The translations under genes and the position numbers were made by a program. Positions 50,623 through 53,546 of a DNA stretch of 64,000 nt are shown here, piece by piece. This DNA is from Limnohabitans sp. (GTDB lineage: Bacteria > Pseudomonadota > Gammaproteobacteria > Burkholderiales > Burkholderiaceae_C). The notes under the pieces are model-generated. The model was not told the DNA's origin. It ran no database searches and saw only the letters and a list, made by a program, of their open reading frames with translations. Each line of letters starts with the position of its first letter. Position 1 is the stretch's first letter. The DNA lies in the NCBI RefSeq assembly GCF_017848645.1, contig NZ_JAFEIF010000011.1, positions 1 through 64,000 of the forward strand, written 5' to 3'.

Positions 50623-50720
50623 GCTTTCAGGGCGGCGGTTCTTTGATTTGCGAACCCGACTCGGACACGGTCGGCACAGTCCTGGCCTCTCCAGCCCCGG
50701 CAAGGGTCTTGATCCGTGCC

Positions 50721-50733
50721 TACAATGGCTCCC
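50721..50733 (+). promoter_or_regulatory. Candidate tldD -10, 7 nt before ATG
   Basis: TACAAT at 50721-50726 is followed by seven bases and the ATG at 50734. There is no ribosome-binding sequence and no clear -35. This fits a leaderless start. It also argues against the in-frame GTG at 50716 and ATG at 50725 (which overlaps the -10). Confidence 0.4.
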
Positions 50734-52194
50734 ATGATTTCACGCGAACCCACCATCGAACGTCTGGCCACAGCCCGCTCCCTCTTGCTGGAGCCTTTTG
50801 GTCTGGACGAAACCCACCTCAGCCGCGCTTTGGCCGCCATCAAGGCCCATGCTGTGGACGATGCCGACCTGTACTTTCAGTACACCCGCTCCGAAGGCTG
50901 GAGCCTGGAAGAGGGCATCGTCAAGACCGGCAGCTTCAGCATCGACCAAGGTGTGGGCGTGCGGGCCGTGTCGGGCGAGAAAACCGCCTTCGCCTACTCG
51001 GACGACATCTCCGAAGCCTCTTTGATGGATGCGGCCATGACGGTGCGCACCATCGCGCAGGCCACGCAAAACAAACGCATCAAGGTGCCGGCCCGCAAGG
51101 TCTCGGCCAGCCGCTCGCTTTACCCGTCGCTCGACCCGATGTCCACGCTGGACAGCACAGCCAAGGTGAATTTGCTCGGCCGTGTCGAAAAAATCGCCCG
51201 TGCCAAGGACCCCCGCGTGGTGCAGGTCATGGCCGGTCTGGCCACCGAATACGACGTGGTCATGGTGGCCCGCGCCGACGGCACCCTGGCCGCCGATGTG
51301 CGCCCCTTGATTCGCCTGTCGGTCACGGTGATTGCCGAGCAAAACGGCCGCCGCGAAGTGGGCAGCAGCGGCGGCGGTGGCCGCTTTGGCCTGGCTTATT
51401 TTGACGATGGCATGGTCGAGACCTATGTGCAAGAAGCCGTCTCGGCCGCGCTGATCAACCTCGAAGCCCGACCCGCGCCTGCGGGCGAGATGACGGTGGT
51501 GCTGGGCAATGGTTGGCCCGGCGTGCTGCTGCACGAAGCCGTGGGCCACGGTCTGGAGGGTGACTTCAACCGCAAGGGATCGAGCGCCTTCAGCGGCCGC
51601 ATCGGCCAGCGCGTGGCGGCCAAAGGCGTCACCGTGCTCGACGACGGCACCATCGCTGACCGCCGGGGCTCGCTGAACGTGGACGACGAAGGCCACGCCA
51701 GCCAAAAGAACGTGCTGATCGAAGACGGCATCTTGCGCGGCTACATCCAGGATTCGATGAACGCCCGCCTCATGGGCGTCAAACCCACAGGCAACGGCCG
51801 CCGCGAAAGCTACGCCCATGTGCCCATGCCGCGCATGACCAACACCTACATGCTGGGCGGCGACAAGAGCGCCGAAGAAATTGTGGCCAGCATCAAAAAG
51901 GGTCTGTACGCCACCAACTTCGCGGGCGGCCAGGTGGACATCACCAGTGGCAAGTTCGTGTTTTCGGCCAGCCAGGCCTACTGGGTGGAAAACGGCAAGA
52001 TCCAGTATCCCGTCAAGGGTGCCACCCTGATCGGCAGCGGCCCCGAATCGCTCAAGAAGATCAGCATGATCGGCAACGACATGAAGCTCGACTCGGGTGT
52101 GGGCACCTGCGGCAAGGAAGGCCAGAGTGTGCCCGTGGGTGTGGGTCAGCCTACGCTGCGCATCGATGGCCTCACCGTGGGCGGCACGGCCTGA
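50734..52194 (+). CDS. tldD: Metalloprotease TldD
   Basis: A 486-residue zinc metalloprotease that acts with TldE (PmbA) on peptides such as microcin precursors and CcdA. E. coli TldD has 481 residues. The zinc-binding motif HEAVGHGLEGD is visible near residue 266, with its third ligand region in the same domain. The N-terminal part is DADLYFQYTRSEGWSLEEGIVKTGS, typical of the family. tldE is not in this window. I chose the ATG at 50734, which gives MISREPTIERLATARSLLL. It is downstream of a P1 peptidase, together suggesting peptide turnover. Confidence 0.96.
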   Translation: MISREPTIERLATARSLLLEPFGLDETHLSRALAAIKAHAVDDADLYFQYTRSEGWSLEEGIVKTGSFSIDQGVGVRAVSGEKTAFAYSDDISEASLMDAAMTVRTIAQATQNKRIKVPARKVSASRSLYPSLDPMSTLDSTAKVNLLGRVEKIARAKDPRVVQVMAGLATEYDVVMVARADGTLAADVRPLIRLSVTVIAEQNGRREVGSSGGGGRFGLAYFDDGMVETYVQEAVSAALINLEARPAPAGEMTVVLGNGWPGVLLHEAVGHGLEGDFNRKGSSAFSGRIGQRVAAKGVTVLDDGTIADRRGSLNVDDEGHASQKNVLIEDGILRGYIQDSMNARLMGVKPTGNGRRESYAHVPMPRMTNTYMLGGDKSAEEIVASIKKGLYATNFAGGQVDITSGKFVFSASQAYWVENGKIQYPVKGATLIGSGPESLKKISMIGNDMKLDSGVGTCGKEGQSVPVGVGQPTLRIDGLTVGGTA

Positions 52195-52264
52195 GGCGCC
52201 TGTTCGGGTTTGCCCTTGGGCGGTCCCGTCAGGAAGCGTCATCAACCTGTGATACATTGAATAC

Positions 52265-52339
52265 ATGTCTTCGCGCATCGCTTTTTACTTTTTTTATTTT
52301 TGGTTCTCAGTCCCCGGCGGACGAGAGGCGAGCGCATAA
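52265..52339 (+). CDS. Aromatic-rich leader peptide of aroG
   Basis: A 24-codon ORF (ATG 52265, stop TAA 52337-52339) 85 bp before aroG. Residues 7-14 are FYFFYFWF: five Phe, two Tyr and one Trp in eight consecutive codons, unlike anything else in the window. The codons are TTT/TTC, TAC/TAT and TGG. This is the layout of attenuator leaders such as pheL and trpL. Ribosome stalling at these codons when charged Phe-, Tyr- or Trp-tRNA is scarce would leave 52314-52326 free for antiterminator pairing. There is no strong Shine-Dalgarno sequence; TGTGATACAT just upstream may be the promoter -10. Confidence 0.85.
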   Translation: MSSRIAFYFFYFWFSVPGGREASA

Positions 52340-52395
52340 GCACCCGAACATCTCGACACACACCGCCGGAGCCCCAAAGCCCGGCGGTTTTTTTT
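52314..52395 (+). promoter_or_regulatory. Transcription attenuator: antiterminator and terminator hairpins
   Basis: CCGCCGG at 52363-52369 can pair with CCGGCGG at 52381-52387 (terminator, 11-nt loop, then T8 at 52388-52395) or with the identical CCGGCGG at 52314-52320, where the pairing is extended by CGAGA (52322-52326) with TCTCG (52351-52355). The two are mutually exclusive. A ribosome reaching the leader stop at 52337 would cover the upstream arm and let the terminator form; one stalled on the aromatic codons (52283-52306) would leave it free. Confidence 0.8.
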
Positions 52396-52424
52396 CACCT
52401 GTTTTTAAATCTGAGGAGTCCACG

Positions 52425-53546
52425 ATGAACGCCAAAACCGCAGCCCCCGAGAGCTGGTATCCGAATGCCGCCGACCGCAAAGGCCAGACCGACGACGAAC
52501 GCATCAAGGACATCACCGTGCTCCCACCGCCAGAACATTTGATCCGCTTTTTCCCGATTGCCGGCACGGCCACGGAAACCCTGATCACCCAAACCCGCAA
52601 AGCCATTCAGAAGATCGTGCACGGCCAAGACGACCGCTTGCTGGTCATCATCGGCCCTTGCTCGATCCACGATCCGGCTGCAGCCCTCGACTACGCCCGC
52701 CGCCTCAAGCCCCTGCGTGAAAAATACGCCGACACGCTGGAGATCGTGATGCGCGTGTACTTCGAAAAGCCCCGCACCACCGTGGGCTGGAAAGGCCTGA
52801 TCAACGACCCCTACCTGGACGAGAGCTACCGCATCGATGAAGGCCTGCGCATCGCACGCCAGCTGCTGATCGAGATCAACCGCCAGGGCCTGCCCGCAGG
52901 CAGCGAGTTCTTGGACGTGATCTCACCCCAGTACATTGGCGACCTGATCAGCTGGGGTGCCATCGGCGCTCGCACCACCGAAAGCCAGGTGCACCGCGAG
53001 TTGGCTTCGGGCCTGTCGGCCCCCATCGGCTTCAAGAACGGCACCGATGGCAACATCAAGATCGCGACCGACGCCATCCAGGCCGCAGCCCGTGGCCACC
53101 ACTTTTTGTCGGTGCACAAGAATGGTCAGGTTGCCATCGTGCAGACCCAAGGCAATCAGGATTGCCATGTGATTTTGCGCGGCGGCAAAGCCCCCAATTA
53201 CGACGCTGAAAGCGTGGCCGCCGCTTGCAAGGAACTCGAAGCCGCCAAGCTGCCTGCTACTTTGATGGTGGACTGCAGCCACGCCAACAGCAGCAAAAAG
53301 CACGAGCGCCAGATCGACGTGGCCAAGGACATCGCCGCGCAGATCAGCGGCGGCTCGCGCCAGGTGTTTGGTGTCATGGTCGAAAGCCACCTCAAAGACG
53401 GTGCCCAGAAGTTCACGCCCGGTCAGCACGATGTGACCCAGCTGACCTACGGCCAGAGCATCACCGACGCTTGCATCGGCTGGGACGACAGCGAAGGCGT
53501 GTTGCAGGTGCTGTCGGATGCGGTCAAGGCTCGCCGCGCAGGCTGA
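52425..53546 (+). CDS. aroG: 3-Deoxy-7-phosphoheptulonate (DAHP) synthase, class I
   Basis: Condenses phosphoenolpyruvate and erythrose-4-phosphate to DAHP, the first step of the shikimate pathway to Phe, Tyr and Trp. The 373-residue protein is a class I AroG/F/H-type enzyme, with IIGPCSIHDPAAALDYA near residue 67, MRVYFEKPRTTVGWKGL near residue 108, GARTTESQVHRE and MVDCSHANSSKKH, all standard. The ATG at 52425 follows GAGGAG. Codons in frame from 52257 run through the leader and are not coding for this protein. It lies downstream of an aromatic leader attenuator. Confidence 0.97.
   Translation: MNAKTAAPESWYPNAADRKGQTDDERIKDITVLPPPEHLIRFFPIAGTATETLITQTRKAIQKIVHGQDDRLLVIIGPCSIHDPAAALDYARRLKPLREKYADTLEIVMRVYFEKPRTTVGWKGLINDPYLDESYRIDEGLRIARQLLIEINRQGLPAGSEFLDVISPQYIGDLISWGAIGARTTESQVHRELASGLSAPIGFKNGTDGNIKIATDAIQAAARGHHFLSVHKNGQVAIVQTQGNQDCHVILRGGKAPNYDAESVAAACKELEAAKLPATLMVDCSHANSSKKHERQIDVAKDIAAQISGGSRQVFGVMVESHLKDGAQKFTPGQHDVTQLTYGQSITDACIGWDDSEGVLQVLSDAVKARRAG

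Follow-up and report, generated by a model that had tools for sequence, protein, structure and literature searches.

The 64,000-nucleotide stretch of Limnohabitans sp. DNA analyzed here (the window) carries an aroG gene on the forward strand (52425–53546), which starts with an ATG at 52425, is preceded by a Shine-Dalgarno sequence, GAGGAG (52413–52418, forward strand), and encodes a class I DAHP synthase of the AroF/G/H type (TIGR00034). It is the sole DAHP synthase gene found in the genome: a protein search gave one match, no class II DAHP synthase was found in the genome, and a genome search with the class I family returned a single further match besides aroG, which we take to be a kdsA-like gene, next to a presumed CTP-synthase-like gene. 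No match to TrpR or to a TyrR-type helix-turn-helix protein was seen in this genome. The tldD gene (50716–52194) lies 5' of the aroG leader; among 78 named loci it is found on the same strand as aroG in 71, sometimes several hundred bases away, making for a loose but lasting neighborhood.

Between tldD and aroG, the original prediction had placed a short ORF with the aromatic run FYFFYFWF, and every coordinate given for it agrees with the sequence. The ORF (52265–52339, forward strand) encodes the 24-residue peptide MSSRIAFYFFYFWFSVPGGREASA, is predicted to be translated from a leaderless mRNA (see below) and contains eight consecutive aromatic codons, F Y F F Y F W F, at 52283–52306 (forward strand). 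The leader peptides belong to no known protein family, with no Pfam matches for one peptide and no NCBIfam matches for three. An RNA segment termed arm 2, CCGGCGGaCGAGAG (52314–52327), lies within the ORF, includes the motif CCGGCGG (52314–52320) and would constitute the 5' half of an antiterminator. Arm 3 (52351–52369), with TCTCG at 52351–52355 and CCGCCGG at 52363–52369, is common to this antiterminator and to a terminator, the 3' half of which is arm 4, CCGGCGG (52381–52387); a T8 tract (52388–52395) completes an intrinsic terminator as judged from sequence, all on the forward strand. Alternative pairing of CCGCCGG with either copy of CCGGCGG, the T8-bearing terminator and an extension of the antiterminator by CGAGA (52322–52326) with the complementary TCTCG had all been proposed, and sequence and folding support them at these positions. 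Folding also indicated a possible arm 1, TTCTC (52304–52308, forward strand), which overlaps the last control codon and pairs with GAGAG at 52323–52327.

Both the aromatic ORF and the triple arm exceed chance expectation. None of 1000 dinucleotide-preserving shuffles of 52195–52424 contained an ORF with at least seven aromatic residues in eight codons, and none contained a 7-mer, its complement and the 7-mer again followed by T6; in the 64-kb window, this triple occurs once, at the aroG leader. A survey of the 6032 short ORFs (10–60 residues) in the 80 named loci and the window found 57 with at least six aromatic residues in eight, of which 55 resemble the leader by a loose motif and two do not. 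When folded alone, the terminator segment reached -20.0 kcal/mol (z -4.35) and the antiterminator segment -23.3 kcal/mol (z -3.40). Sequence, fold and pair counts (see below) agree on an intrinsic terminator between the leader and aroG, while fold and three-way co-variation support a mutually exclusive antiterminator that shares an arm with it. A generic terminator scan called no terminator at the leader, probably because the loop comprises 11 nt and the scan is limited to 8. A known Rfam RNA was rejected, as Rfam release 15 gave no match at gathering score in the window; the one match below threshold was CC0196, at 16 bits versus 35.

The original prediction depended on conservation in close relatives, and the aromatic codons, the three arms, the terminator and the position before a DAHP synthase gene all proved to be conserved. 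In 78 of the 80 named loci, aroG is preceded by a leader in which five or more of eight residues are aromatic, usually with Trp in addition to Phe and Tyr. The other two are uninformative: L070 has only 5 nt of upstream sequence, and L023 has 178 nt that lack a leader and hold the end of a group II intron. This intron (RF00029, 47.3 bits; L023:70–141) ends just 5' of aroG, so that a leader of L023, if there is one, would be located past the end of the contig or on the far side of the intron from aroG.

We built a covariance model, R1, from 54 leaders (alignment A1; the window and 53 loci), drawn from 91 stretches by leaving out near-copies; L064, L069 and L080 were absent from the 91 because their terminators fell outside the search pattern. 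On the window's own genome, with scores computed for 150 of the 1117 first-look candidates, the aroG leader was the single match at E values up to 10. R1 matched 194 of 200 genomes of the family, including 176 of 179 of good quality, as is partly expected for a model trained on this family. Strict filters confined the searches to 17 candidates per genome in the family, 8 in the order and 12 in the class, and weak or further copies may be missed. Two loci, L046 and L058, have the run FYFWHFH together with an arm 2 altered to GGCGC and altered 1:2 arms, and present a natural test of the pairing rules.

At the level of the order, R1 matched 98 of 399 genomes spanning 14 families, not counting the family of G377. 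For 98 of the 99 matches, found in 97 of these genomes, a DAHP synthase match on the same strand follows at a distance of 19–150 nt. As R1 holds no information on DAHP synthase, this placement constitutes an independent test. The match in G377 (E 0.0075) lies away from its DAHP synthase match and was rejected. By hand, we recognized a leader with a GGCGG-T terminator in 26 of 80 DAHP synthase upstream regions sampled across the order, leaving aside a weak candidate (L126) and aromatic ORFs lacking such a terminator (L132, L151); no leader was recognized in the other 54 of these regions. Leaders before paralogous DAHP synthase genes were likewise rejected, none of 20 upstream regions containing a leader with the terminator; in one of them, L204, a short Trp-rich ORF lies 308 nt before the gene and lacks such a terminator.

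In a class-wide sample, R1 matched 6 of 274 genomes, three of which belong to the window's family and two to one other family, while the sixth (L236) is a false positive with neither a leader ORF nor a DAHP synthase in the fetched locus. The leaders of the two from the other family, FYFWYYFPKPLAEEG and FYRWYYFPKPPAEEG, accompany DAHP synthases of 61–62% identity. Their ORFs (L234 and L235) lie near position 1500 on the minus strand with the DAHP synthase gene downstream; their family is absent from the order samples, and the leaders resemble those of family f4 (PLAEEG). These leaders may possibly have been transferred together with the gene, or be of older origin. In a protein tree of 33 rows, leader-bearing genes are spread over several branches, and four rows lack a leader, namely three of family f31 and one paralog on a long branch of unsure placement. 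The three f31 enzymes (L115, L116 and L117), from two small-genome members and as one copy of G208, are 76–79% identical to that of the window and have no recognized leader; a 65% identical copy in G208 does have one (L138). Taken together, the leaders form a large family of aroG leaders that is apparently undescribed, of a kind already known.

Aligning the leaders of relatives showed that the aromatic codons are conserved and that the arms change together. Conservation of the aromatic codons is at the peptide level, as judged by sequence comparison: counted back from arm 2, the fifth and sixth codons encode an aromatic residue in 98% of 117 leaders, and over codons 3 to 10 the aromatic share ranges from 60 to 98%. 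These arm counts cover 117 of the 123 distinct leaders, the remaining six having no exact GGCGG in arm 2. GGCGG lies in reading-frame position 0, 1 or 2 in 94, 3 and 20 of the 117, respectively; its occurrence in all three frames argues that arm 2 is conserved as RNA and not as peptide. TTT accounts for 68% of the Phe codons in the leaders of 123 loci versus 27% in aroG, which favors TTC; this preference may reflect slower decoding, unstructured RNA or both.

As the search pattern fixes the GGCGG core, only the outer bases test pairing. Among the 97 first-set leaders (Comamonadaceae and their near relatives), 79 have C-G-C as the bases adjoining GGCGG in the three arms; of the 20 from other families, 10 have T-A-T (U-A-U in the RNA) there. 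At this position, arms 3 and 4 pair in 93 of the 97 and in all 20, and arms 2 and 3 in 89 of the 97 and in 15 of the 20. In alignment A2, comprising 23 rows hand-picked for diversity, 98.4% of the terminator cells and 94.4% of the antiterminator cells are paired, with 13 and 8 cells, respectively, changed on both sides (as high in 0 of 500 shuffles for each); slid controls reached at most 58% pairing. Pairs with two-sided changes number two in the terminator, reached by 51 of 500 shuffles, and one in the antiterminator, reached by 434 of 500, and the count of pair types in these helices is no higher than in shuffles, so that in two of the five co-variation measures the shuffles equal or nearly equal the real helices. 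Co-variation is confined to one or two columns because most arm positions never vary. A T-run of at least five follows in 116 of the 117 leaders, the search itself having required at least three.

The spacing of these elements is also maintained. In 112 of 117 leaders, 7–17 nt separate the last aromatic codon from GGCGG, and in all 117 the stop codon starts 6–31 nt after the first G of this motif (21 nt in the window). A ribosome covers about 12 nt ahead of and 15 nt behind its P site. With this footprint, a ribosome stalled at the last aromatic codons would leave arm 2 free, while one at the stop codon would mask at least part of it, which fits the geometry originally claimed, namely that stalling frees the upstream arm and reading to the stop covers it.

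TTCTC and GAGAG could form a classical 1:2 (pause or protector) hairpin, a possible element suggested by folding. Among 37 of the 117 leaders, the median z was -0.81 for 1:2 versus -2.8 for 2:3 and -4.65 for 3:4, the stability of 1:2 not exceeding that of shuffles in these 37. Although 93.7% of cells pair in the 1:2 helix, slid controls reach 77%, with higher co-variation scores. Other families have differing yet largely pairable sequences at the position of arm 1. Arm 1 would remain uncovered if stalling took place early in the run, at codons 7–9.

An extended -10 box, TGaTACATT (52250–52258, forward strand), identified by sequence and conservation, ends 6 nt before the leader ATG. A generic scan detected no sigma-70 promoter with a -35 box at the leader, and no -35 box is seen in the window. 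Of the 101 first-set leaders, 99 have a TAnnnT box that ends 6–8 nt before the ATG, preceded by TG in 98 cases; when the box was sought at three shifted positions as a control, it was present in 2, 5 and 0 of 123. Of the two exceptions, L030 deviates only via an inner ATG, its first ATG fitting the rule, while L028 has a box, TAAAGT, whose end is 10 nt away from its first ATG. In leaders of other families, such a -10 box occurs in 8 of 22, three of them with TG. A properly placed Shine-Dalgarno-like 4-mer precedes only 1 of 123 leaders versus 87 of 97 aroG genes. The usual distance from a -10 box to the start would place the transcription start at or near the leader AUG. Given the position of the box and the missing Shine-Dalgarno sequence, the leader mRNA is probably leaderless, with transcription starting at or near the AUG. 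The leaderless start and the possible 1:2 hairpin are additions to the original account.

We suggest, with a probability of roughly 0.93, that a ribosome-mediated transcription attenuator sets aroG expression via the charging of aromatic tRNAs, a reading that had been put forward originally and that is supported by the conserved leader, the arms, the terminator and the position before DAHP synthase. Transcription would begin close to or at the leader AUG, giving a leaderless mRNA on which ribosomes load. With uncharged aromatic tRNA, the ribosome would stall within FYFFYFWF and cover arm 1, leaving arm 2 free to pair with arm 3 as antiterminator, such that RNA polymerase reads into aroG. With charged aromatic tRNAs, the ribosome would reach the stop codon and mask arm 2 or, alternatively, depart there and allow 1:2 to form; arm 3 would then pair with arm 4, and transcription would end at T8. 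The ORF, its aromatic run, the arms and their co-variation, the terminator, the spacing, the position of the -10 box and the link to DAHP synthase rest on sequence and comparison; from these we infer stalling, the start site, the 1:2 step, the amino acids that count and the size of the effect.

Other readings of the locus fare less well. That the hairpin and T8 merely terminate tldD, with the short ORF arising by chance, might be entertained given that 71 of 78 loci have tldD upstream in the same orientation, but this idea is contradicted by the seven loci in which the leader is kept next to other neighbors, and we reject it as exceedingly improbable; in addition, a conserved -10 box belongs to the leader itself, which in other families is again found with DAHP synthase. 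Translational control by hiding the aroG Shine-Dalgarno sequence was also rejected, as this sequence lies 3' of the terminator. A TnaC-like nascent-peptide arrest, in which the peptide senses free aromatic amino acids instead of tRNA charging, would accommodate the high conservation of the peptide end, FYFWFSVPGGRE, in many Comamonadaceae loci. However, the part following the aromatic run is conserved as RNA, with GGCGG in all three frames, and the order and number of aromatic residues and the peptide length differ among families, rendering such an arrest unlikely.

Assuming attenuation via tRNA charging, the leader could respond to several amino acids or to few. All 123 leaders contain Phe and 121 contain Tyr; Trp is present in 99 and absent from the other 24. 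DAHP synthase genes of E. coli are regulated by TyrR/TrpR. With a single DAHP synthase and neither TrpR nor TyrR found here, a shared sensor for three end products would be sensible. We tentatively propose that one leaderless leader integrates Phe, Tyr and Trp, shortage of any one of them lifting termination before the sole DAHP synthase gene, and that across Comamonadaceae and further families of Burkholderiales such leaders, and not the TyrR/TrpR logic of E. coli, exert the main control over shikimate entry. An equally tentative variant holds that the attenuator is dominated by Phe, that shortage of Phe (perhaps of Tyr) alone matters and that the Trp codons are tolerated passengers. Phe in every leader versus Trp in 99 speaks for this variant, as does the aroR leader of Corynebacterium glutamicum, which, in the excerpts consulted, has Phe-Tyr-Phe and reportedly shows no Tyr response (PMC11802643); on the other hand, Tyr is present in all but two leaders, and Trp, if present, is often among the last codons before arm 2, where the best stall site is expected.

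If true, the proposed attenuation would explain how a large group of bacteria controls the first step of aromatic synthesis, offer a ready test of one leader reading three amino acids, contribute a case, spread across a family, of attenuation on an mRNA predicted to be leaderless and provide a regulatory target for the production of aromatic compounds in these bacteria. In the trp, pheA and pheST attenuators of E. coli, cognate codons form a run, the 2:3 and 3:4 helices are alternatives and a T tract is present, all of which holds for the aroG leader as well; in contrast to them, the aroG leader has arm 2 inside the ORF, and its ORF is apparently leaderless.

These E. coli attenuators are also named in excerpts of PMC11802643. 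Among the matches listed in the open literature, with subscription journals mostly outside, we found no report of an aromatic leader of aroG in Burkholderiales, and DAHP synthase is not named in the excerpts of a study on attenuator discovery (PMC2965389). In Sinorhizobium meliloti, the excerpted text describes the trpL attenuator as having a transcript that begins with the leader ATG (PMC7298713); it resembles the aroG leader in being leaderless, as predicted here, but uses Trp codons, precedes trpE(G) and belongs to the Alphaproteobacteria. Among proteobacterial DAHP synthase genes, a regulatory RNA or attenuator has been predicted for Shewanella aroF and aroH (PMC2659441), and attenuation for a Vibrio aroA-type DAHP synthase gene followed by tyrA (PMC1173090); as excerpted, these descriptions concern other gene lineages and mention no such leader peptide, which sets them apart. 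Excerpts of PMC2659441 and PMC8632094 further refer to a suggestion made in 1980 about aroF of E. coli. The uORFC-13-1 motif before aroF of Acholeplasma (PMC8632094, in part) likewise combines, in front of a DAHP synthase gene, a predicted uORF bearing one or more Phe codons with an apparent intrinsic terminator, but it is a prediction only, from another phylum and with another structure model. The original account named none of these DAHP synthase precedents, nor, above all, the aroR leader of C. glutamicum aroF, where, according to the excerpts, attenuation responds to limitation of Phe and not to Tyr (PMC11802643, PMC4046766). Compared by description only, both systems place an aromatic leader peptide and attenuation before a DAHP synthase gene, the actinobacterial aroR with three reported aromatic codons (Phe-Tyr-Phe) and no Trp, the aroG leader of the window with eight.
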